From: a virus
Length of the DNA: 21,589 bases
IMG/VR virus record: IMGVR_UViG_3300025137_000351
Coordinates: 1-21,589 of that record
Direction: 5' to 3' (one strand)
Shown here: piece after piece, positions 6,063-19,461 of the stretch
Layout of the letters: each line of letters begins with the position of its first letter
Position numbering within the stretch: position 1 is the first letter of the stretch
Program-made: the position numbers and the translations under genes
The notes under the pieces: model-generated
What the model was told of the DNA's origin: nothing
What the model saw: only the letters and a program-made list of their open reading frames with translations
Database searches by the model: none

Positions 6063-6362
6063 ATGGACGGAAGAAGAAACAATAAAGGAACTAAAGGAAA
6101 CAAAGGAGGAAGACCAAGTAGGTCAGATGAACAAAAGCTTATAGAGAATCTAACACCTATGAATAGTTTAGCACTAGACTCACTACAACAAGGATTAGAA
6201 AAGAAAGAACAATGGGCAGTTAAGTTATTCTTTGAATACTTCTATGGTAAACCTCAACAAAGAGTTGATGTAACAACTAATGAAGAAAGTCTAAATATGC
6301 CTATCATTAACTTTGTAGAAACTGAACCTGTTATTAAACTTACAGGAATTGATACTGAATAA
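6063..6362 (+). CDS. terS: Terminase small subunit
   Basis: 99 residues. A basic Gly/Lys/Arg/Asn-rich start (RRNNKGTKGNKGGRPSRSDEQ) leads into a helical segment (LIENLTPMNSLALDSLQQGLEKKEQWAVKLFFEYFYGKPQQRVDVTT), the pattern of short small terminases in Bacteroidota phages, where the FEYFYGKPQQ-x-VDVTT stretch is characteristic. It lies directly before the large terminase, with which it overlaps by 14 bases. Known role: recognition of packaging sites on concatemeric DNA and regulation of the motor. The first gene of the putative late operon beginning at the 6018 element. Confidence 0.8.
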   Translation: MDGRRNNKGTKGNKGGRPSRSDEQKLIENLTPMNSLALDSLQQGLEKKEQWAVKLFFEYFYGKPQQRVDVTTNEESLNMPIINFVETEPVIKLTGIDTE

Positions 6363-7551
6363 GAAATACGAAGAACTATTTTCATCTAAAGCTAGATACT
6401 ACATTATCACAGGTGGTAGAGGATCGGGTAAGTCATTTGCCGTTACAGTCTTTCTTACACTACTAACAATGACAGAAGGCATTAGAGTATTGTTTACACG
6501 TTTTACAATGGTATCAGCTCACTTGTCAATCATACCTGAGTTCTTAGAAAAGATAATACTATTAGGATATGAGAATACCTTTAGTGTAAATAAAGCAGAG
6601 GTAGTCAATCTAAAGAATAAATCAGACATACTATTTAGAGGTATTAAAACATCAGCTGGTAATCAGACTGCAAGTCTAAAGTCATTACAAGGTGTAAGCA
6701 CTTGGGTACTTGATGAAGCAGAAGAACTTATTGATGAAGATATATTTGATACAATAGACTTAAGTATTAGAGAAAAGAATATACAGAATAGAATCATACT
6801 TATACTTAATCCTGTAACTAAAGAGCATTGGATATATAAAAGGTTTTTTGAAGACAAAGGAGTTGAAGCTGGTTTTAATGGTTTTAAAGACAATGTATGC
6901 TATATACATAGTACATACGAGGATAACAGAGAAAACCTCTCAGAGAGCTTCCTAGAGCGTATTAAGACTATAAAGCACAATAACTTTAAGAAGTATCAAC
7001 ACAAAATATTAGGTGGCTGGTTAGACAGAGCAGATGGTGTAGTATTTGATAATTGGAGTATAGGAGAATTTAATCCTGATAACTTACAAACATCTTGTGG
7101 TATGGACTTTGGATTCTCAGTTGATCCTGATTCATTAACTGAAGTTGCAATAGATAAAAAGAGACAAAGGATATATCTTAAAGAGCATATATACAAGAAT
7201 GGTTTGAAGTCAAATGAACTAGCACAGATAATACTTAACAAGGTAGGACAGAAGCTTATCATAGCAGACTCAGCAGAGCCAAGACTAATAGCAGACTTAA
7301 AGCATTTAGGAGTAAACATTAAACCTGTTAAGAAAGGAACTATTGAAAGTGGTATAACACGTATGCAAGACTATCACTTAGTAATAACACCTGAATCAAC
7401 TAACATAGCTAAAGAGCTAAATAATTATATATACAGCGACAAGGGTTCTAAATTATATCACGATTCATACAACCACGCAATAGACGGAATAAGGTATAAC
7501 GTAATCTACCATTTAGACAATCCAAACGCAGGAAGGTATTATGTACAATAA
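6349..7551 (+). CDS. terL: Terminase large subunit (packaging ATPase/nuclease)
   Basis: About 400 residues. Walker A GGRGSGKS is at residues 22-29 and Walker B TWVLDEAEE at 118-126 with Asp122/Glu123. A coupling-type LILNPVTKEHW is at 151-161. The C-terminal RNase H-like nuclease has Asp253 (MDFGFS), Asp307 (IADSAEP) and Asp379 (NHAIDGIRY). Known role: ATP-driven DNA translocation into the prohead and cutting of the concatemer. There is no ATG before the P-loop: the next in-frame Met is at residue 41. TTG at 6349 gives a start (LNKKYEELF) like that of related terminases, so TTG is the best start, though nearby CTG codons at 6322, 6328 and 6355 cannot be excluded. It overlaps the small subunit gene by 14 bases. 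Confidence 0.93.
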   Translation: MILNKKYEELFSSKARYYIITGGRGSGKSFAVTVFLTLLTMTEGIRVLFTRFTMVSAHLSIIPEFLEKIILLGYENTFSVNKAEVVNLKNKSDILFRGIKTSAGNQTASLKSLQGVSTWVLDEAEELIDEDIFDTIDLSIREKNIQNRIILILNPVTKEHWIYKRFFEDKGVEAGFNGFKDNVCYIHSTYEDNRENLSESFLERIKTIKHNNFKKYQHKILGGWLDRADGVVFDNWSIGEFNPDNLQTSCGMDFGFSVDPDSLTEVAIDKKRQRIYLKEHIYKNGLKSNELAQIILNKVGQKLIIADSAEPRLIADLKHLGVNIKPVKKGTIESGITRMQDYHLVITPESTNIAKELNNYIYSDKGSKLYHDSYNHAIDGIRYNVIYHLDNPNAGRYYVQ

Positions 7552-7646: not shown

Positions 7647-8246
7647 ATGAAGGTAAAGATTAAGAAGAAGGGAAAAGTAAAAGAGTTCAAGTTAATTAAT
7701 AAGTGGGAAGACGTAACATTAGAGAAGTGGATAAAACTTGTTGATTATCATAAACTTAGTAAAAGTAAAGAAGCTTTAGAAACTATAAAAGCATTATCTA
7801 ACATTCCTAAGAAGTTAATAAAGGAATTAGAATTAAAAGATATAGCTATTATAATGGGTAAAATTTCTGAGCTACAACAGAAGCAAGATAGTTCTTTAAA
7901 AAGGATAATTGAAATAGATGGTAAGAGATATGGGTTTCATCCTAATCTAGACTCTATCACGTTAGGAGAATGGGCTGACTTAGAGACTATGATTAAAATA
8001 GATATAGAGAAACAATTACCTGAAATAATGGCTATACTGTATAGACCACTAGTAGAAGAAAAGAATGATGTCTATACAATTAAAGCGTATGATGGAGATA
8101 TTAGAATACGAGCCGAACAGATGAAGCAGATGTCAGCTGAACAAGTGCAAAGTGCATTGGTTTTTTTTTACACTTTCGCCAACGAATCATTGGAGACTTT
8201 GCAATCATTTTTGACGGAACGGCTGAAGGAAACGAAGACGCAATAG
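7647..8246 (+). CDS. Tail assembly chaperone, short form (G-like)
   Basis: 199 residues from the ATG at 7647. A very basic start (KVKIKKKGKVKEFKL) leads into a Trp-containing helical domain (NKWEDVTLEKWIKLVDYHKL) and a middle with a WADLETMIKIDIEKQLPEIMAILYRP stretch, which resembles tail chaperone proteins of Bacteroidota phages. Near the end the frame crosses nine T residues (8161-8169) encoding VFFY, after which 25 more residues (TFANESLETLQSF and on) reach the stop at 8246. The same nine T allow -1 shifting into a longer open frame, as in lambda G/GT. Known role: the short form coats or guards the tape measure protein during tail assembly. Confidence 0.75.
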   Translation: MKVKIKKKGKVKEFKLINKWEDVTLEKWIKLVDYHKLSKSKEALETIKALSNIPKKLIKELELKDIAIIMGKISELQQKQDSSLKRIIEIDGKRYGFHPNLDSITLGEWADLETMIKIDIEKQLPEIMAILYRPLVEEKNDVYTIKAYDGDIRIRAEQMKQMSAEQVQSALVFFYTFANESLETLQSFLTERLKETKTQ

Positions 8247-8422
8247 CAACAGAATCCTTTGCTGATAAGTGGGGGTACTTTGGAATATTTTATAGATTAT
8301 GTAATGCAGATATTTCAAAACTAGAACAAATAACAAAGCTTAACCTATTAGAAGCATTTACTTGGTTAAGTTATGAAACAGACTTAGAGTCGCAAAATAA
8401 AGTAAAAAGAAATGGTAAGTAA
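7647..8422 (+). CDS. Tail assembly chaperone, frameshifted long form (GT-like)
   Basis: Product of -1 frameshifting after Phe174: residues 1-174 are shared with the short form and 84 residues are read in the new frame from 8168 to 8419 (stop 8420-8422), for 258 residues in total. The extension begins LHFRQRIIGDFAIIFDGTAE and contains SFADKWGYFGIFYRLCNADI then KLNLLEAFTWLSYETDLES, a helical domain of the type that follows the slippery site in other Bacteroidota phage chaperones. This frame explains the 166-base stretch after 8246 that has no other gene. It ends 11 bases inside the next gene. Known role of GT: the extra T domain binds the tape measure protein and recruits tail tube subunits. 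The shift efficiency cannot be read from sequence. Confidence 0.75.
8162..8168 (+). promoter_or_regulatory. -1 ribosomal frameshift slippery site T-TTT-TTT
   Basis: Within GTT-TTT-TTT-TAC (codons at 8160-8171) the heptamer T-TTT-TTT (8162-8168) satisfies the X-XXY-YYZ rule with both P- and A-site codons TTT, so tRNA-Phe can re-pair in the -1 frame. The -1 frame is open from here through 8419 and stops with TAA at 8420-8422. A possible small stem follows (CCAA/TTGG around 8179-8193), but I would not rely on it. Confidence 0.75.
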
Positions 8423-8957
8423 TAAGACATACAATAACGTAATAAACACTCTATGTAGGTTAGGAGAGTATCATAAACAAATATCTACTGTATCTGTTGG
8501 AGATATATATGACATTAATTTAGAGAAGTTGGAGAAGTTTCCATTACTACATATCAATCCATTAAACGTAGCAACAGGAGATAGTGAGTTAATCTATAAC
8601 TTTCAAATCTTTATTATGGATATGGTAAGCGAAAAGAATGATTGGAAAACTAAACAACAAACAGAGCTTACTAAATTAGTAAACACTAAGAACAATGAGC
8701 AAGAGGTATGGAATCAGACTTTAGAAATAGCTACTGACTTTATAGGTATGTTAAGACATAGTTCAAGGCAATCACTTGAAGGAGTCAATGATATTAATGC
8801 ACCAATATATTTTACGCAAGATCAATTCACAATAGAACCATTTCAAGAAAGGTTTGACAATCTTTGTTGTGGCTGGGTGTTTCAGATAGGAGTTAAAGTA
8901 ATGAATGACTTTAGTACTTGTAATATACCTGTATTAAATCAAGGAGCTGGTTACTAA
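8412..8957 (+). CDS. Probable tail terminator / tail completion protein
   Basis: 181 residues. The ATG follows AA and overlaps the end of the frameshifted chaperone by 11 bases. The N-terminal helix (NKTYNNVINTLCRLGEYHKQI) is followed by GDIYDIN, LLHINPLN and a beta-rich NFQIFIMDM, a layout I associate with short tail-completion or tail-terminator proteins in Bacteroidota phages (small alpha/beta fold). Cys at 133-134 (LCCGW, approx.) and near the end. Known role of such proteins: capping the tail tube at the head-proximal end. Assignment by resemblance and position among tail genes; another neck protein is possible. Its stop overlaps the next tiny ORF as TAATG. Confidence 0.45.
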   Translation: MVSNKTYNNVINTLCRLGEYHKQISTVSVGDIYDINLEKLEKFPLLHINPLNVATGDSELIYNFQIFIMDMVSEKNDWKTKQQTELTKLVNTKNNEQEVWNQTLEIATDFIGMLRHSSRQSLEGVNDINAPIYFTQDQFTIEPFQERFDNLCCGWVFQIGVKVMNDFSTCNIPVLNQGAGY

Positions 8958-9049: not shown

Positions 9050-9499
9050 ATGGCAGATTTAGTAACAACAATATCAGAAACAGTAACCTTGAATGGTTCA
9101 CTAAGAGGTTCTACAAACTCAGTAACCACGACAGGTATCAATGATGTATTTGAAAGAATAGTATTATGTACACAAGGACAACTAACAACAGTATGTTCTT
9201 TTGCAGCAAATCCTTACACTTCAGTAGGTGCTATTGATGTAGACCGAACAAAGTATGTGAGACTCACTAACTTAAGCACAACAGAGAATATAGAGGTAGC
9301 ATTTATTGGTACTGCTACATTATATCAAGTTTTGATTACTCCAGGCAATTCACACGTTTTAAGTCAAGCAGATGCAGTTCTTTTAGCAGAAGCAGATTTA
9401 GCTCCTAGTTTTGGTGCATTAGAGAATTTATCTAAAATAACAGTACAACCTGTAAGTACAACAGATGCTAGAGTTGAAGTATTCGTAGGTTTAGAGTAA
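9050..9499 (+). CDS. Small virion structural protein (unassigned)
   Basis: 149 residues, with almost no Lys/Arg beyond the ends and rich in Thr, Ser, Ala and Val, suggesting a beta-sandwich. The sequence has a repeated beta rhythm (VTTISETVTLNGSLRGSTNS, YVRLTNLSTTENIEVAFIGT, VQPVSTTDARVEVFVGLE). I do not recognise the family. Similar small beta-rich proteins in phage tail blocks serve as tail or decoration proteins. It starts ATGGC after an A-rich leader and its stop overlaps the next start as TAATG. No signal peptide or membrane segment. Likely part of the virion, exact role unknown. Confidence 0.55.
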   Translation: MADLVTTISETVTLNGSLRGSTNSVTTTGINDVFERIVLCTQGQLTTVCSFAANPYTSVGAIDVDRTKYVRLTNLSTTENIEVAFIGTATLYQVLITPGNSHVLSQADAVLLAEADLAPSFGALENLSKITVQPVSTTDARVEVFVGLE

Positions 9500-10026
9500 T
9501 GAAGACTGACAATATAGAAAAGTATTTAAATAGCTTTGGTAAGCAAGTAGTCAATAGAGCTAAGGGTAGTCTCCAAAAAGCAAAAGGAGGAGGTACAAAC
9601 TTAGAAAACTCTATAAGCTTTAAAGTAGTTGCTGATGCTGATGGTTTTTCAGTACAATTCTATATGGATAGCTATGGTACATTTGTAGATAAAGGTGTAT
9701 CAGGTAATAAACAAAAAAGAACTTTTAAAGACTATACAGGACAGACAATATCTAGTCCTTATAAGTACACAAATAAACAACCACCTCCAGGAATATTAGC
9801 TAAATGGATAAAGAAGAAAGGAATTAAAGGTAGAGATAAAAAGACAGGAAGGTTTATTAGTAATATGTCTTTAGCTTTTATAATGGGTAGAGCAATAAAA
9901 AGAGACGGAATACAAGGTATAAGTTTCTTTCAAAAACCTTTAGGATTAGGCTTAAAGCAATTTGGTAAAGACTTATTAGGTAATTTAAAAGAAGATATAA
10001 TAGAAGGACTAACAACAGTAAAATAA
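9499..10026 (+). CDS. HK97 gp10-like neck/tail completion protein (tentative)
   Basis: 175 residues. The N-terminal part is helical (NIEKYLNSFGKQVVNRAKGS) with a Lys/Gly-rich KGSLQKAKGGG, then a beta segment FSVQFYMDSYGTFVDKGVSG, the segment that in HK97-gp10-like proteins has a Y-x2-x-x-D/E-x-G pattern. A central loop rich in Lys/Pro (SPYKYTNKQPPPGILAKWIKKKGIKG) and a C-terminal region with a glycine-rich GISFFQKPLGLGLKQFG follow. Known role of gp10-like proteins: head-tail connection and tail attachment. Assignment by this motif and by position among tail genes; confidence is moderate. Stop/start overlap TAATG on both sides. Confidence 0.45.
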   Translation: MKTDNIEKYLNSFGKQVVNRAKGSLQKAKGGGTNLENSISFKVVADADGFSVQFYMDSYGTFVDKGVSGNKQKRTFKDYTGQTISSPYKYTNKQPPPGILAKWIKKKGIKGRDKKTGRFISNMSLAFIMGRAIKRDGIQGISFFQKPLGLGLKQFGKDLLGNLKEDIIEGLTTVK

Positions 10027-11432: not shown

Positions 11433-14113
11433 TGAGCATACAACTTATAATATATCCTCAATTTTATGATGGTACTAATCCAATAAGTGCTAACTTCACT
11501 CAATTTGTTGTAGATGGAATTAACTTTAATACTGTTAATACTTCTAATTCACAAGTAAATGTTACAGGTAATTTAGTACCGACAGCTATAAATACTGTAT
11601 CTCCTATGACATTAAACACTTGGTATAGATTTAGTCCAAATGCAAATTTTGTTACAGAATCTTCAGGAGTTTTAGGAATGGTATTAGATGTAGGTATAAT
11701 GCAGAAATTATCAAATTTGACTGTGGGTGTAACTTATGATATAATTTTAGACGCATCAGTTAACACATCAGGTATAAATTTTTATCAATATAATGGTAAC
11801 CTAATACAAAGCACATCAGTATTGACAGGAACAGGTTTACAATCTGTATCTTTTACTGCTTCTTCTACTGATGATATTATTGCGATACAATCAATAGGCG
11901 TATCACAAATATCAAGTATATCAGTACAGCAGTCTGTACAATCTCCTAGTGGTGCTATTCAATTATTAGGAAATGGACAACTAATAGTAGACCTTTATGA
12001 AGATGAAGATATACCATTGACTTTAAGTGTTGATGAATTTAAAAATGTAGCTGAACAAGTACAGTCTTATTCTAAAGCATTTAACTTACCAGCAACTAAA
12101 AGAAACAACCAAATCTTTGACAACATATTTGAAGTAACAAGAAACACTAATAGCTTTGTATTTAATCCTTATGTTAAAACACAATGTGAATTAAAGCAAG
12201 ATGGGTTCACTTTATTCCAAGGATATTTAAGACTTATAGATATACAAGATAAGTTAGGAGAAATAAGCTATAATGTAAATCTATATTCTGAAGCTATTGC
12301 ATTAGCTGATCTATTAGAGAATAGAACATTTAGCCAAATAGATTTTACAGAACTTACACATCCATATAACAAGCCAAATATCAAAGGTAGTTGGACAACA
12401 GGGGTTACTTATGATAATCCAGCTACAACAGTATATAGAACAAGTGATACAGTTAAATATCCTTTTGTAGATTGGACACATCAAATGTTAGTAGCAAATG
12501 GTGCAACAGGAAGTAACGCAACTCCTGACAATCCTGAATTAACTTCACTAGAACAAGCATTTAGACCTTTTTTAAATATTAAGTATTTAATAGATAGAAT
12601 ATTTGATGCAACACCATTTAGTTTTACAAGTAATTTCTTTGATACTGCTGATTTTAAAAAGTTGTATATGGATTTTAATTGGGGAGGAGACGAATCTCCT
12701 ATATCAGAAAATGAATATGAAGCTACTTGGCAATTTGGTACAGGAGCAGCTTCAAATATAGGTATCAATTATAATACTTATAAAGAATTAAGATTAATAC
12801 CTGATGGAGTTACAGGTGGTCAATCAGGTTCTAATGTTCCTCCTAATTATGATACTTCGACTTATATTATAACAGCAACAACTAACAATGAATTTTATAA
12901 TATTGATTATAAATTTCAATTTCAAAATAATAATTTACCTTCAGTTGAATTTGTTGGTGTTAGATGGGTACACACTACTGCAGCAGGGGTAGTAACACAA
13001 ATAAACTATAATCCTTTTTTACAAGTTATTGTTAATAATATATATCAAGGTAATTTACAAGTTATTTTAAATACAGGAGATACTTTGTCAGCTCAATTTA
13101 GAGCCACTACTAACGTAAGACAAGACGAAATACAAACTCCATCAGCATCTGTTGTATTTTTAGTATCTAATACTGCCGTAACTTCAGCAGCATTAAACAC
13201 ATTAAGAGGAGAGTTAGGACAATGGGAGTTCTTAAAAGGTATTATGACTATGTTTAATTTAGTTTCTATACCTGACAAATCTAATCCTAACAACATACTA
13301 ATAGAACCATACCAAGATATATTCTTAGAAAATGATGATACAACAGAATTAGATTGGACAGATAAAATAGATGTTTCAGAAATAAAGTTATTACCTCTGA
13401 CAGACTTAAATAAAAATACTATTTTTAAATTTGTTGAAGATGATGACGACTATGTATTTAATGTATATAAAAATTCTATATCAGGATTTTTGTATGGAAG
13501 TAAAAAATATGATGCTTCAGATTATACAATACTAAGTGGAACAGAAGAAATAGTAGCAGAACCTTTTGCAGCAACAGTACCAAAACCATTAATGTCTCAA
13601 TTTCCTGATTTTATAATTCCATCAATATATTCTTATAATGCAGATGATGGTACTTCTGAAGGTTTTGACAACAGTCCTAGAATAATGTTTAATGGTGGAG
13701 TTAAAACTTTAAATAGTTGTACTTACTACATACCACCACAAAATGGTTTCAGCTCAGAAAATGCAGATGACTTTTTACAATTTAGTCATTTAACAGATAT
13801 ACCAACTATAACAAATACACCTCCTTTAGTAACAGACACTAGAGATTTTCATTTTGGAGAATGTCAGCTTATACAACCTATTGGAAATAGTACACCTAAT
13901 AATCTATTTAATACTTATTGGCTACCTTATTTTAACGAGTTATATAATCCTGATACAAGAACTATGACTTTAAAGGTAAATCTAAAAGCTGGAGATATAA
14001 ACACTTTCAAATTTTATGATACTGTATTTATTAAAAATAGAAAATTTAGAGTAAACAAAATAAACTACAAACCAAACGACTTAGCAACAGTTGAATTTAT
14101 ACTTATACCATAA
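11432..14113 (+). CDS. Large tail/baseplate-type structural protein with N-terminal beta-sandwich
   Basis: 893 residues, the largest gene here. Residues about 20-175 form a beta-rich, Thr/Ser/Asn-rich segment resembling carbohydrate-binding modules. Residues about 180-270 (DLYEDEDIPLTLSVDEFKNV, EQVQSYSKAFNLPATKRNN, FNPYVKTQCELKQDGFTLFQ) follow a pattern common in large Bacteroidota phage structural proteins: a short strand, SKAF-x-LPAT, and an FQGYLRL-type strand. The C-terminal end has TMTLKVNLKAGDINTFKFYD and FIKNRKFRVNKINYKPNDLA, again a conserved-looking terminal beta domain. Likely a baseplate hub or distal tail protein; assigned by pattern, not by a known name. It lies before the fibre-like gene and the tape measure gene. 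Confidence 0.55.
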   Translation: MSIQLIIYPQFYDGTNPISANFTQFVVDGINFNTVNTSNSQVNVTGNLVPTAINTVSPMTLNTWYRFSPNANFVTESSGVLGMVLDVGIMQKLSNLTVGVTYDIILDASVNTSGINFYQYNGNLIQSTSVLTGTGLQSVSFTASSTDDIIAIQSIGVSQISSISVQQSVQSPSGAIQLLGNGQLIVDLYEDEDIPLTLSVDEFKNVAEQVQSYSKAFNLPATKRNNQIFDNIFEVTRNTNSFVFNPYVKTQCELKQDGFTLFQGYLRLIDIQDKLGEISYNVNLYSEAIALADLLENRTFSQIDFTELTHPYNKPNIKGSWTTGVTYDNPATTVYRTSDTVKYPFVDWTHQMLVANGATGSNATPDNPELTSLEQAFRPFLNIKYLIDRIFDATPFSFTSNFFDTADFKKLYMDFNWGGDESPISENEYEATWQFGTGAASNIGINYNTYKELRLIPDGVTGGQSGSNVPPNYDTSTYIITATTNNEFYNIDYKFQFQNNNLPSVEFVGVRWVHTTAAGVVTQINYNPFLQVIVNNIYQGNLQVILNTGDTLSAQFRATTNVRQDEIQTPSASVVFLVSNTAVTSAALNTLRGELGQWEFLKGIMTMFNLVSIPDKSNPNNILIEPYQDIFLENDDTTELDWTDKIDVSEIKLLPLTDLNKNTIFKFVEDDDDYVFNVYKNSISGFLYGSKKYDASDYTILSGTEEIVAEPFAATVPKPLMSQFPDFIIPSIYSYNADDGTSEGFDNSPRIMFNGGVKTLNSCTYYIPPQNGFSSENADDFLQFSHLTDIPTITNTPPLVTDTRDFHFGECQLIQPIGNSTPNNLFNTYWLPYFNELYNPDTRTMTLKVNLKAGDINTFKFYDTVFIKNRKFRVNKINYKPNDLATVEFILIP

Positions 14114-14964
14114 TGGCAAGAACACTAATTCCTTTTCTTTCTGATTATCCTGTAAAACCTAATTCTATAAATGGACTAGGTATAGTTAAGTTTACTGATG
14201 GTACTAATGATATAACTCCTAACCAACAGCAATGTGAAGCTTACGGATATACTTATGATGAATCAACAGGAACTTGTAAAGCATTTATGTACAATAGCAA
14301 TATAGAAAGAAACATTGCTAACGTAAATAACAATGTACAAGGATCAAGAAACGTAACAGAAACAGGTACTAACAATACCTACATAATGGGAGAAAGCAAT
14401 ACTGTAAAAGGTTTGTCAAGAAACAACATTATAATAGGAAGTAATAATGAAATAGCTAATGGTATCAATAATTCTAGCGTCTATGGTACTAAAGGAGAGG
14501 TTACAGCGACTAACTCAATAGTCTTAGGGGGTAATGCTCCAACAGACAATTTAGCTGAGAGACAAAGTATTCAATTAATGTATGGTACACAGACAACAGC
14601 AGGTTCAACAGTAAATAGTTACTTAAACAATATAACAGATAGTTTTTTTATTATACCTGACAATACTATTATGTATTTTCACGCTGATGTTATAGCAGTA
14701 AGGGTAGCAGGAACTAATACAGGAAATTTAGGAGACTATGCTTCTTTTGTTGAAAGAGGTGTAGTAATTAATGAAAGTGGTACTGTAACAATTAATAGGG
14801 AAAGAGAAACAGTTAAAACTAATGGTACTGTTACTGATTGGAGACCTACTGCTAGTGTTAGTGGTACTAATTTTATAATGCAAGTAAGAGGAGAAACAGA
14901 TGTAACAGTAGAATGGGCAAGTAATATAACATTTACACAAATTAAAACAGGAGTAGCACTTTAA
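14113..14964 (+). CDS. Fibre-like protein with Asn-rich beta-roll repeats
   Basis: 283 residues. Residues about 66-140 contain degenerate repeats of the form N-N-x-I/V-x-G-x-x-N (NIANVNNNVQGSRNVTETGT, NNTYIMGESNTVKG, NNIIIGSNNEIANG, NNSSVYG), like the left-handed beta-roll of trimeric adhesin heads. Two Cys at 41 and 55. The C-terminal 120 residues are beta-rich (NESGTVTINRERETVKTNGT, DWRPTASVSGTNFIMQV), a domain I have seen at the end of fibre-type proteins of Bacteroidota phages. Inferred role: trimeric fibre or host-recognition element near the tail. The start overlaps the previous stop as TAATGG; it is followed by the tape measure gene 10 bases later. Confidence 0.6.
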   Translation: MARTLIPFLSDYPVKPNSINGLGIVKFTDGTNDITPNQQQCEAYGYTYDESTGTCKAFMYNSNIERNIANVNNNVQGSRNVTETGTNNTYIMGESNTVKGLSRNNIIIGSNNEIANGINNSSVYGTKGEVTATNSIVLGGNAPTDNLAERQSIQLMYGTQTTAGSTVNSYLNNITDSFFIIPDNTIMYFHADVIAVRVAGTNTGNLGDYASFVERGVVINESGTVTINRERETVKTNGTVTDWRPTASVSGTNFIMQVRGETDVTVEWASNITFTQIKTGVAL

Positions 14965-14974
14965 AAATAAAGAT

Positions 14975-16633
14975 ATGGCAGATAAGGTAATATTAGAAGC
15001 AGAAGTAAAATCTAATGTAGGTAATGTAACAAAAGATGTAAAAAATCTTGATAAAGCTACTGATAAAGCTTCAGGTGGGTTTAAAGGAATGGGTACTGCT
15101 ATAAAAGGAGTAGGTACTGCATTAAAAGCAGCAGGTATTGGATTAGTAGTAGCACTTTTAGCTAAGCTTGGCGAAGTGTTTATGAAGAATCAAAAAGTAG
15201 TAGATGCTTTTAACACAACTATGGTTGCATTAGAGATAGCATTTAATGATTTATTTAGTTATATATCTGATAACGTAGGTGCAATAACAGGGTTTTTTAA
15301 AGAATTATTTGAAAACCCTAAAGAAAAAATTATAGAACTAGGAAATGCTATTAAAGAAGGTCTTGTAGATAGATTTAATCAAGCATTGGAAGTATTTGGA
15401 TTAGTAGCAAAATCATTTGGACAATTAATTAAAGGAGAATTTAGTGCAGCATTTGATACTATAAAAGAAGCTGGTAAACAAACTGTTGATGTATTTACAG
15501 GTGTAGATGATAGTTATGAAGAAGTAGCAAAAACTATAACAGACTATACTAAAAAAACAATAGATCAAGCTAAAGCAATAGTTGCAACGACTAAAGCAGC
15601 AGAAAGAGCAGCAGTAGAATTTGCTAAATTAAATGCTCAGTATTTAAAAGACGCAGAGATACAAAGACAAATAAGAGATGATGAAACTAAAACTTTTGAA
15701 GAAAGAATAGAAGCCAATGAAAAGTTAGATGAAATATTAGCAGAGCAACAAAAAGCACAGAAAGCACAAATACAATTACAGATCAATGCAGCACAAGCTC
15801 AATACAGTTTAAACGCAAGTGAAGAAAACTATATAGCACTACAAGAAGCTAAAGTAGGTATGTTAGAGCTTGAAGAAACTATAACAGGTCAATTATCTGA
15901 GCAAAAGACTAATCAGGTAGCATTAGAAAAAGAATTACTAGAAACTCAAAACGAATTAAGAGTTGCAGGACTTTCAGGAATAGAAAGAGAATTAGAAGAA
16001 TTACAAAACTCTTATGATTTGAAGCTAGAAATGGCACGAAAAGCAGGAGTTAATTCTACTGAAATTACAAAACAATTTGAAGATGAAAAACAAGCTATAA
16101 TTAAAGCAGCTGCAGATGAAGAAGAAGCACGAGCTAAAAAAGTAGCTGATGAAAAAATAGCATTAGAAAGAGCAGTAAAAGATGCTAAAGTAAATATAGC
16201 AGGACAGACTTTAGGCTTGATTGGAGAAATAGCAGGAGAAGGTTCTAAGGTAGCAAAAGCAGCAGCAGTAGCACAAGCAACAATTTCAGGTGTACAAGGT
16301 GTACAAAATGCCTTTACGACTGCATCAGCGTCTCCAATAACATCAGTATTTCCAGCTTATCCATTTGTTCAAGCAGGATTAGCAGGTGCTTTCTCAGCAA
16401 TGCAAATACAAAAGATAATGTCAGGAGGTTCAGCAGGTGGCAGTAGTGGTGGTGGTGGAGGTGGAGGTGGTGGAGGTATGGAAGCTCAAACTCCTGCTCC
16501 TCAAATGATGTCAGGTGCATTTCAATTAGGTGGTGGTATAGAACCTGAACCAGCTAAAGCTTATGTAGTTACAGATGAAATGACTAATAGTCAAAATCAG
16601 TTAGCTAATATAAGACGTAGAGCTACAATTTAA
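14975..16633 (+). CDS. Tape measure protein
   Basis: 552 residues. A Gly/Ala-rich N-terminal part with a hydrophobic helix (about 49-66, ALKAAGIGLVVALLAKLG), a second hydrophobic segment (about 84-110), a long coiled coil (about 200-400, rich in E, K, Q and A), a third Ala-rich segment (about 410-480), and an unusual Gly tract (492-501) followed by a typical tape measure end (KAYVVTDEMTNSQNQLANIR and so on). Known role: sets tail length by a roughly 0.15 nm per residue rule, giving about 80 nm if all residues contribute (an estimate, not a measurement), and may pass through the membrane during DNA injection. It lies well downstream of its chaperone pair (7647-8422), unlike lambda where they are adjacent. 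Confidence 0.85.
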   Translation: MADKVILEAEVKSNVGNVTKDVKNLDKATDKASGGFKGMGTAIKGVGTALKAAGIGLVVALLAKLGEVFMKNQKVVDAFNTTMVALEIAFNDLFSYISDNVGAITGFFKELFENPKEKIIELGNAIKEGLVDRFNQALEVFGLVAKSFGQLIKGEFSAAFDTIKEAGKQTVDVFTGVDDSYEEVAKTITDYTKKTIDQAKAIVATTKAAERAAVEFAKLNAQYLKDAEIQRQIRDDETKTFEERIEANEKLDEILAEQQKAQKAQIQLQINAAQAQYSLNASEENYIALQEAKVGMLELEETITGQLSEQKTNQVALEKELLETQNELRVAGLSGIERELEELQNSYDLKLEMARKAGVNSTEITKQFEDEKQAIIKAAADEEEARAKKVADEKIALERAVKDAKVNIAGQTLGLIGEIAGEGSKVAKAAAVAQATISGVQGVQNAFTTASASPITSVFPAYPFVQAGLAGAFSAMQIQKIMSGGSAGGSSGGGGGGGGGGMEAQTPAPQMMSGAFQLGGGIEPEPAKAYVVTDEMTNSQNQLANIRRRATI

Positions 16634-16669: not shown

Positions 16670-17215
16670 ATGCCTTGTACAAAATGTGAGAACGGAAAAT
16701 ACAAATGGGGAAAGACAGGAGAATGTAAATATGACTCCAAAGAAGAATGTGAAAAAGCTAATCCAAAAAAATATAGTAAAATGAAACCAACACCACTAGG
16801 AAAGAAGTCGTATGAAGAATACGAAAAAGAATTAAAAGAATTTAACTTAAGTAAAGTTGAAAGAGTTGAGTTATCTTCTATAAAAGAATTAGAAAAACAA
16901 ATTAAAGGTATGAAAAGTGCTTTAAAATATGTTGATGCAAGAATAGATGAAGGAGATGAATATATAAAAGAATTAGTAAAATATAGAAATTTTTCTTTAG
17001 ATGTATATTCTAAATTAATTAAATTAAAACCAAAAATGCAAGAAGTAGCTCAAGAAAAATTAAATAATTTTGAAAAAGCTGCAAAAGAATTAGGTGTTTC
17101 AGTTAATAGTGTACCTCAAGTTAAAGAAATAAAAGGGTTAATTACTGATACTGAAAGTCAAATGAAAAGAACAAAAACTTTAATAAAAAGATTTGAACAA
17201 CAAGGATTAAAATAA
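16670..17215 (+). CDS. Cys-rich coiled-coil protein between tail and head genes
   Basis: 181 residues. The N-terminal 28 residues have four Cys in the pattern C3-x2-C6-x12-C19-x7-C27 with a KYKWGKTGEC segment, which may bind a metal. A Pro/Lys-rich linker (PKKYSKMKPTPLGKKSYEEY) follows, then two long helical stretches (about 55-90 and 110-175) rich in Lys, Glu and Leu, probably coiled coils. I recall such an N-terminus in flavobacterial phages but not a function. It is the first gene after a TCTATTATAT element and directly precedes the prohead protease, so a head-assembly role (for example with protease and scaffold) is likely by context. Start/stop spacing to the protease is 1 base. Confidence 0.55.
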   Translation: MPCTKCENGKYKWGKTGECKYDSKEECEKANPKKYSKMKPTPLGKKSYEEYEKELKEFNLSKVERVELSSIKELEKQIKGMKSALKYVDARIDEGDEYIKELVKYRNFSLDVYSKLIKLKPKMQEVAQEKLNNFEKAAKELGVSVNSVPQVKEIKGLITDTESQMKRTKTLIKRFEQQGLK

Positions 17216-17216
17216 T

Positions 17217-17831
17217 ATGAAAGAAACTAAAATAGTAGAATTAGTAATAGCAGATGATAGTCAAGAACTAGCTATTGATGCTATATCGCTCGTTCACAGC
17301 CCTGCGATAGAATCTGACTTTGTATTCTTTGGTAAAGAGAAAAACAACTTGACATTCGCAAAGGTAGATGAAGAAAAGCGTATGCTAGTAAGTCCAGCTT
17401 TAATACCTAACAAGCAAATCTTTAGATATGATCCTAACACAGACTCTGAGTATTATGTTTACTTTAGTCCTGAAACAGTTAGAAAAGCTAGTGAGTTATA
17501 TTTAAAACATAACAATCATCATAAAGCTACTTACGAACATAAAGACAGAGTATCAGGAGTTCTAACAGTAGAATCTTGGATTAAGGAAGGAGATAGTGAT
17601 AAGTCTAAGATGTATGGTTACGACTTACCTAACGGCACTTGGTTCGTTAAAATGAAGATAGAGAACGAAGACTTATGGAATAAAATAAAAGAAGGAGAAC
17701 TTAAAGGACTTTCAATAGAAGGTTATTTCACTAATAAATTTGAAGAAATGCAAAAACAAAAGCCAACAGACCAAGAAATACTAGAAGCTTTAAACGAAAT
17801 AATAAACGAAAATCAAATAAATTCAAAATAA
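17217..17831 (+). CDS. Prohead protease, XkdF / Peptidase S78_2-like
   Basis: 204 residues. The opening AISLVHSPAIESDFVFFG, then PALIPNKQIFRYDP, YVYFSPETVRKASELYL, ATYEHKDRVSGVLTVESWI and KGLSIEGYF follow the pattern of the XkdF-type serine protease domain. Candidate catalytic residues are His108 (in YEHKD) and Ser166 (in GLSIEG), with acidic Glu119 and Asp126 nearby. The gene order protease, scaffold, major capsid protein supports this. Known role: cleavage of scaffold and capsid N-terminal parts during head maturation. The C-terminal 30 residues are a helical acidic tail. It ends 2 bases before element 4's gap. Confidence 0.75.
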   Translation: MKETKIVELVIADDSQELAIDAISLVHSPAIESDFVFFGKEKNNLTFAKVDEEKRMLVSPALIPNKQIFRYDPNTDSEYYVYFSPETVRKASELYLKHNNHHKATYEHKDRVSGVLTVESWIKEGDSDKSKMYGYDLPNGTWFVKMKIENEDLWNKIKEGELKGLSIEGYFTNKFEEMQKQKPTDQEILEALNEIINENQINSK

Positions 17832-17832
17832 A

Positions 17833-17842
17833 TCTATTATAT
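17833..17842 (+). promoter_or_regulatory. TCTATTATAT element 4 (putative late promoter, scaffold/capsid)
   Basis: Identical decamer starting 2 bases after the protease stop and 13 bases before the scaffold ATG at 17856. Followed by TAAAAAAGA, nearly the extension of element 1. Drives, by inference, the scaffold and major capsid genes up to the hairpin at 19475. Confidence 0.55.
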
Positions 17843-17855
17843 TAAAAAAGAAACT

Positions 17856-18527
17856 ATGGACATTAAAGAACAAATATTAGTAGCACTAGGTCTAAACAAA
17901 GACGAAAGTGTTAAACTTGAATGGCAAGCAAAGTCAGAAGATGGCACTATTTTCGTATCAACTGCTGAAGAATTAGCATCAGGAGTAGATATATCTGTAC
18001 TCACAGAGGACGGAACGACTATCCTTTTACCTATTGGTACTTACAAGACTGCTGAGGGTGTAACTTTTAGAGTTGAAGAAGAAGGTGTAGTTGCTGAAGT
18101 TATGGAAACAGAAACTGAAGAAGAAGTAGAAGCTACTGAAGACAAAGAAGAAATGGCAGAAGAAGCAGATGTAGCTGATTGGGAAGGTATGGAGAAAAGA
18201 ATACAAAACCTAGAAGATGCAGTTGCTAAACTTAAAGAAGACAAAGTAGGAGGAGACGAAGAAGTAGAAGAACTAGCTGAAGAAGTAACAGAGCCAGGTA
18301 CTAATCCTAAGTCTATTAAAACAACTGAAGTAGTTGAATTTTCAGCAGAAGAAGAATTAGAGAAGTTAAAGTCTGAAAACGAAAAACTTAAAACTGAATT
18401 AGCTAAATCACCAGCTGACTCTCCAATTAATACAAATAAATTTAGCTCAGAAAGAAAAGCTCTATCAAGAAAAGAATACAGCAAACTATCTAAGCAAGAA
18501 AGATTTTTATACAACTTAAACAAATAA
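17856..18527 (+). CDS. Scaffold-like acidic protein
   Basis: 223 residues. A beta-rich N-terminal part (about 1-80, EGVTFRVEEEGVVAEVMETE) is followed by a very acidic stretch of Glu repeats (about 83-115), a Leu/Ile heptad-like coiled coil (MEKRIQNLEDAVAKLKEDKV, about 110-130), a second acidic part, another coiled coil (EEELEKLKSENEKLKTELAK) and a basic Ser/Lys-rich end (RKALSRKEYSKLSKQER). This layout, an acidic helical middle with a basic tail, is typical of scaffold proteins, and position between protease and major capsid protein supports it. Known role: guiding capsid assembly and then being removed, often by protease. It is followed by a 19-base gap to the capsid gene. Confidence 0.7.
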   Translation: MDIKEQILVALGLNKDESVKLEWQAKSEDGTIFVSTAEELASGVDISVLTEDGTTILLPIGTYKTAEGVTFRVEEEGVVAEVMETETEEEVEATEDKEEMAEEADVADWEGMEKRIQNLEDAVAKLKEDKVGGDEEVEELAEEVTEPGTNPKSIKTTEVVEFSAEEELEKLKSENEKLKTELAKSPADSPINTNKFSSERKALSRKEYSKLSKQERFLYNLNK

Positions 18528-18530
18528 TAA

Positions 18531-18544
18531 TTTAAAATTTTAAA
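18531..18544. repeat. Perfect 14-base palindrome in the capsid gene leader
   Basis: TTTAAAATTTTAAA ends two bases before the ATG at 18547. It is perfectly self-complementary. As an all-A/T leader it fits strong initiation in Bacteroidota, and the palindrome could be a chance result; it could also be a regulator site or a structured leader. Confidence 0.4.
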
Positions 18545-18546
18545 AA

Positions 18547-19461
18547 ATGGCGTTTACTACAACATCAAACTTTTCTGGAAAAGCAGCAGGTTTTTATATC
18601 TCAGCAGCTTTAAAAGAAGCAAAATCACTTGACTTTCTTAATGTAATAGAAAATATCAAGTTCAAATCTAATATTCAACGTATGGCTGGATCAGGAGTAG
18701 TTGCTGATGCAACTTGTGACTTTACAGGAGCAGGTACTTTAGCACTTACTGAGAAAGTATTAGAACCTAAAAACTTACAAATCAATTTAGACCTTTGTAA
18801 ATCTACTCTTTTAGATTCTTGGGAAGCTCTACAAATGAGAGCAGGAGCAGGAGCACCACCTCCAGCATCTTTTGATGACTATGTTATCTCTTATATGGGA
18901 GAAATCATTGCACAAGCAACAGAAGAAAGCATTTGGGAAGGTACAGCAGTAGCAGGGAAATTCAACGGATTCTTAGGAGCTGCAACAGGTCTTTTATTAC
19001 CAGGAGTTGATGCAACAGTTGTTCAATCATCAGCTTCAGCAGCTTATGTAGCAGGTAACATTATAGCTAACCTACAAACTTTAACAGCTGATATGGCTGC
19101 TAATATTTCAGCAGTATTAAGAAAAGAAGACTTACATATATATATGAGTCCTAAAACTTATGCTTTATATATCTCAGCAGTATCTACATTAGGATATGTT
19201 AATGCTTACAATATGAATGGAGATTATGAGCCTGTATTTGAAGGTTACAAAATTGCAGTTTGTCCAGGAATGGCAGATAACCAATTAGTAGCAGCTCAAA
19301 AATCTAACTTATTCTTCGGTACTGACTTATTATCAGATGCTACAAGAATAACATTGATGGATATGGCTCAGTTAGATGGTTCTGACAATATGAGATTAGT
19401 TGCAAGATACTCAGCAGGTGTTCAAACAGGAGTAGGAGCTGATATCGTAAGACAGTCGTAA
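18547..19461 (+). CDS. Major capsid protein
   Basis: 304 residues. Begins MAFTTTSNFSGKAAGFYISA, with a helix-rich N-terminal arm, a central TGLLLPGVDATVVQS loop region and a C-terminal half with the strand/helix rhythm of HK97-type capsids (HIYMSPKTYALYISAVSTLG, YKIAVCPGMADNQLVAAQKS, NLFFGTDLLSDATRI). Order protease, scaffold, this gene and its length, codon richness and A-rich leader all agree with the major capsid protein. Known role: building the icosahedral shell; maturation may involve cleavage by the upstream protease. A stem-loop follows 13 bases after its stop. The only doubt is the fold, which I infer rather than see. Confidence 0.8.
   Translation: MAFTTTSNFSGKAAGFYISAALKEAKSLDFLNVIENIKFKSNIQRMAGSGVVADATCDFTGAGTLALTEKVLEPKNLQINLDLCKSTLLDSWEALQMRAGAGAPPPASFDDYVISYMGEIIAQATEESIWEGTAVAGKFNGFLGAATGLLLPGVDATVVQSSASAAYVAGNIIANLQTLTADMAANISAVLRKEDLHIYMSPKTYALYISAVSTLGYVNAYNMNGDYEPVFEGYKIAVCPGMADNQLVAAQKSNLFFGTDLLSDATRITLMDMAQLDGSDNMRLVARYSAGVQTGVGADIVRQS

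Follow-up and report, generated by a model that had tools for sequence, protein, structure and literature searches.

The gene at positions 7647-8422 of the stretch of DNA analysed here (hereafter the window, an IMG/VR virus record of 21,589 bases) is most likely, judging from its sequence, a tail assembly chaperone pair of a phage. It would be expressed as two proteins with 174 residues in common, a short form of 199 aa and a long form of 258 aa carrying an 84-aa extension, the latter reached through a −1 frame change on a run of nine T residues (T9). The comparison of relatives leaves hardly any doubt that a programmed frame change at T9 is real and conserved, whichever agent produces it, and a probability of about 80% is assigned to the fuller reading, in which the products of this frame change would be a tail chaperone pair, again independently of the agent. 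As to the agent itself, the balance between ribosome and RNA polymerase is nearly even, tilting slightly to the ribosome. The frame change, the position of the junction just after FF and the selection acting on the extension emerge from comparative genomics, and the chaperone identity is proposed because of weak but gene-specific family matches and the position of the gene in the tail module. The probable chaperone belongs to phages of Flavobacteria and relatives, and the window itself comes from a marine phage of flavobacterial type.

The frame-change site and the two frames

The 199-aa zero frame reads the codons GTT TTT TTT TAC at 8160-8171, as had been proposed in a preliminary description of this DNA, and contains the heptamer T_TTT_TTT in phase, i.e., in the X_XXY_YYZ arrangement of −1 ribosomal frameshift sites. 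T9 is the sole run of at least eight T residues in the window. After a −1 shift the reading continues as LHFRQR...NGK over 84 codons (8168-8419) up to a TAA at 8420-8422, and translation agrees with the length and the end point previously suggested for this open frame. The −1 frame of the window opens only from 8141 and contains no ATG, GTG or TTG, so that in this phage the extension is not separately translatable from a common start codon. The next ORF begins at 8412, overlapping the end of the extension, and the interval 8247-8411 would otherwise be empty, again as described before. The coordinates of the relevant features are collected in Table 1.

Table 1. Features of the frame-change gene and of its surroundings in the window
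Feature	Position	Strand	Basis or remark
Terminase large subunit, just upstream	6349..7551	+	3′-end DNA similarity to the annotated terminase of P12024S/L
Short form, G-like, zero frame, 199 aa; residues 1-174 common to the long form	7647..8246	+	ORF; homologues in 224 loci; AlphaFold2 pLDDT 88.5; phrog_32199 in 57/57 aligned members
Weak hairpin ending 2 nt before T9; lead only	8144..8158	+	No better than other stretches against a codon-preserving null
T9 frame-change site; in-frame heptamer T_TTT_TTT at 8162-8168	8161..8169	+	9 T in 142/146 and 10 T in 4/146 distinct sequences
−1 extension, T-like, 84 codons + TAA; C-terminal part of the predicted 258-aa long form	8168..8422	+	Conserved; pN/pS 0.08 beyond the zero-frame stop; no ATG/GTG/TTG
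Next ORF, 181 aa, start overlapping the extension stop; gene of about 150 aa here in relatives	8412..8957	+	
Probable tail-completion/neck protein	9499..10026	+	phrog_29822
Tape-measure-like gene	14975..16633	+	Three PHROG tape measure families, best E 1.1e-12

Conservation of the run and of the extension

Relatives were gathered using three queries, the short form, the extension and the P12024S protein, and consist of viral contigs from 96% down to about 25% identity. The 224 loci comprise 146 distinct sequences, judged by the 210 bases around the site, and no run shorter than nine T was found among them; these sequences, to which the cultured Nonlabens phages P12024S and P12024L belong, are related, and the counts given for them here are not independent of one another. 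The loci L016/L017/L106, L109 and L153 have the run shifted by one codon phase, still with nine T. The extension, of about 80-92 codons, was found in every relative whose contig reaches far enough; the position of the zero-frame stop differs between relatives. The T9 observation is confirmed as real and far beyond chance. The preliminary description had suggested looking for the same T run and extension in relatives, and both are present; it had also indicated that a separate start for the extension, or a lack of conservation, would speak against a frame change. Relatives have no shared start, and in most of them none is present ahead of the conserved part or near its beginning; as to conservation, few parts of the region are as well conserved as the extension.

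Furthermore, variability in close relatives peaks at third codon positions, those of the zero frame upstream of T9 and those of the −1 frame downstream of it. In these relatives the pN/pS ratio amounts to 0.17 upstream of T9 and to 0.08 in the part of the extension that lies past the zero-frame stop; where the frames overlap, it is lowest in the −1 frame (0.38), compared with 0.74 in the zero frame and 1.8 in the third one. Purifying selection on the extension is strong.

Two other explanations have to be weighed against these data. In the P12024S/L records the extension is annotated as a separate short ORF, as would be expected if it were a gene with its own start; nevertheless, the lack of start codons described above, both in the window and in most relatives, and the existence of relatives in which the two parts are fused in a single frame make this extremely improbable. 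In turn, homopolymers are error-prone and single-ORF relatives exist, which is what a sequencing or assembly error splitting one real gene would predict. Such an error is hardly credible, given that the out-of-frame arrangement is repeated in the 146 distinct sequences, from many samples and from separately deposited isolate genomes, and that nearly all relatives keep an open zero frame far beyond the run, for about 25 codons or more.

A minor observation concerns the origin of some of these contigs: two metagenome bins, labelled Euryarchaeota and Pseudooceanicola (L162, L163), contain contigs of this phage family, which are probably stray phage contigs.

Isolates and single-ORF relatives

In the phage collection searched, the only DNA relatives of the window for this stretch are the Nonlabens phages P12024S and P12024L, detected through the end of the terminase gene. 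They share with the window T9, the extension and the place after the terminase, and differ in the deposited annotation, which splits the probable chaperone gene (L082 11824-12518 in P12024S, L083 2824-3518 in P12024L) into two separate hypothetical proteins (ORFs 38/39 and 40/41). At the level of protein families, the two halves correspond to phrog_32199 and phrog_38404 and the fused form to phrog_25418; three PHROG families without an assigned function would be joined in this way into one probable tail chaperone.

The AlphaFold2 model of the short form, compared with BFVD, retrieved, among predicted phage proteins, one of P12024S (E 6e-13) and a protein of Flavobacterium phage 6H (E 1.7e-4). 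Starting from the latter, a homologous single ORF of 259-301 aa was reached in the Duneviridae laban6-1 and Ingeline_1, whose proteins belong to phrog_25418, as well as in Leef_1 and in Microcystis phage Mea-Yong924-1. In these phages one open frame is continuous through the FF junction and, unlike in the window, a frame change is not needed; one and the same protein is found as a frameshifted pair in some phages and as a single ORF in others. The profile of the fused window family aligns with the single-ORF relatives from residue 1 through the junction (after residue 174) to column 222 with E 1.3e-10, a stronger match than that of the short form alone (E 1e-7); the extension alone has no significant homology to them, only the fused profile does. 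The alignment across the junction provides independent support for the junction and for the predicted product. In phage 6H, the short form has a homologue in gp10 (L228 10031-10927, on the minus strand of that record); the T-like part lies in a different frame, with no T9, apparently as a result of indels, and joining the two would require more than one shift. Unlike 6H, laban6-1 carries both parts in one frame.

Identity as a tail assembly chaperone

The members of the G/GT class bind the tape measure and tail tube proteins, are absent from the virion and are made as two forms in a set ratio. Their genes adjoin the tape measure gene in lambda and P2, a location that is usual and not strictly defining. 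From the sequence of the window gene and of its relatives, the features of this class that can be recognised are a pair of overlapping frames, connected through a −1 change at a conserved slippery site shortly before the first one ends, and an extension that forms a conserved coding domain and has no start of its own. By analogy, the two forms would act like lambda G/GT or P2 E/E+E′: the tape measure protein would be bound through the common part, and tail tube subunits would be recruited by the long form.

Six-frame searches of 23 whole records gave weak matches to PF10109 (Phage_TAC_7) in 6 of them (E 0.0016-0.0055 per genome) and to phrog_166, 'tail protein', in 10 (E 4e-5 to 0.007 per genome), with one match per record, located at the frame-change gene wherever coordinates were checked. 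PF10109 is the Pfam family that most members of the window family touch, every match being below the Pfam cut-off; the best score in the whole-record search was 13.8 bits against a curated cut-off of 25 bits, and the gene is therefore not filed as a member. The Pfam and NCBIfam searches yielded no hit above cut-off, to a curated chaperone family or otherwise. Among the matches of the short-form model in BFVD one is annotated as tail assembly chaperone (E 0.027); searches of the PDB with the short form, by sequence and by fold, returned nothing usable, and the predicted model of the extension was too poor to serve as a structural query.

The closest parallels are found in P2 and lambda. The P2 gpE/gpE+E′ pair and those of P2-like phages (PF10109) also consist of a short form and a −1 extension at a T run, the sites being T6G in P2 and T7G and T7C in relatives (PMC3931495); the window family differs from P2 in its uninterrupted T9/T10 and in its gene order. 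Lambda gpG/gpGT likewise are a short and a long product of one gene, the −1 change taking place shortly before the short frame ends (PMC5009743), whereas the window gene has T9 instead of the lambda site, does not adjoin the tape measure gene and gives no match above cut-off to a curated chaperone family. A literature search, with subscription papers mostly outside reach, found no published account of the T9 site among the hits listed, and an earlier description is possible.

The same points of difference, namely the missing curated match and the location of the gene as the first of the cluster after the terminase, away from the tape measure gene, would fit a frame-change pair that encodes some other assembly or neck protein. 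This is considered unlikely, since the weak chaperone and tail-protein matches in whole records fall only on the frame-change gene, the production of a short and a long product by a −1 shift is the tail chaperone pattern (PMC5009743), and in Ingeline_1 about 1 kb separates the fused homologue from the annotated tape measure gene downstream of it. Regarding the −1 frameshifted G/GT pair put forward in the preliminary description, the frame change stands, upheld by the relatives and by the junction of the single-ORF forms; the chaperone identity is a probable one, and the data accommodate ribosomal and polymerase slippage alike.

Gene neighbourhood

The place of the pair had been described as unusual, right after the terminase and about 6.5 kb from the tape measure gene. 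This is true, and it is kept across the frameshifting family. Pair and tape-measure-like gene are on the same strand, the former upstream, with 6.5 kb and six larger ORFs between them. Several remote relatives repeat the order terminase, pair, gene of about 150 aa, tail-completion-like gene and larger genes. A remote counterpart of the probable tail-completion/neck gene (L199 5203-5721) also matches phrog_5, tail completion or Neck1 (E 0.0019).

Some additional features of the surroundings deserve mention. The ORF at 14113-14964, just upstream of the tape-measure-like gene, contains NxxxGxxN-type repeats that resemble those of fibres or adhesin heads and not the usual chaperone genes. Head genes (an XkdF-type protease, a probable scaffold and a capsid protein) lie downstream of the tail genes, at 16670-19461, and a non-systematic look at the ORFs searched recognised no portal gene.

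Ribosome or RNA polymerase

The tail pairs of lambda and P2 are made by translational frameshift, and a ribosomal −1 slip on U_UUU_UUU is taken as the default agent for this reason. Almost as likely, the same two proteins would be obtained by slippage of RNA polymerase on T9, one U being added to part of the mRNAs and those with ten U giving the long form. Indeed, one added U in the T9 transcript leads exactly to the −1 frame.

U_UUU_UUU and U_UUU_UUC are among the efficient −1 heptamers in E. coli, where the best heptamers without a stimulator reach only about tenfold over a background of 0.055% (PMC4066793). Runs of nine T are prone to slippage by bacterial RNA polymerase, with insertions favoured (PMC1088944; PMC6260861), and a conserved run of at least nine A or T within a coding frame, one of the features of transcriptional slippage genes, is what the window family has. 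In Thermus dnaX, Shigella mxiE and IS elements a slippage-prone homopolymer of nine A or T lies between two frames, as in the window (PMC1088944); polymerase slippage has been demonstrated for those genes, and for the window gene it is possible.

Several features of the alignment argue for the polymerase. The run never falls below nine in the 146 distinct sequences and keeps this length when its codon phase is displaced. Moreover, a T-to-C change at 8168 would leave the residues of both frames unaltered and would preserve an efficient ribosomal heptamer, yet it is absent: TTC is used in 0/112 cases at the two Phe columns of the slip site against 56/253 at five other well conserved Phe columns. 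Many remote loci may have been retrieved through a peptide pattern that includes FFY, but such patterns are codon-degenerate and therefore introduce no bias toward TTT over TTC. Likewise, no signal of conserved RNA structure, a common and not required ribosomal stimulator, was found in the region after the run, and unstimulated heptamers shift little in E. coli (PMC4066793).

On the other side, hydrophobic residues in the two frames can account for the constancy of the outer T residues (8161, 8169), and a length of nine, taken alone, was therefore rejected as proof of transcriptional slippage. The relatedness of the sequences, the translational origin of the lambda and P2 pairs and the lack of significance of a hairpin next to T9 also weigh against the polymerase. 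That the long form comes mainly from polymerase slippage, with a G/GT-type ratio set in transcription and maintained among deeply divergent phages of Flavobacteria and kin, remains a serious contender, put at somewhat below even odds. The invariant T9 makes the question testable in P12024S/L, which have a cultured host.

Among the 30-nt stretches compared in close relatives, the hairpin just mentioned ranks first in stability, with a mean of −5.1 kcal/mol. Against a codon-preserving null it has a z of −2.75, and several unrelated stretches reach z values of −3 to −7; given that these score as well or better, the hairpin is only a lead. In most close relatives it lies 2 bases before T9, a terminator-like arrangement.
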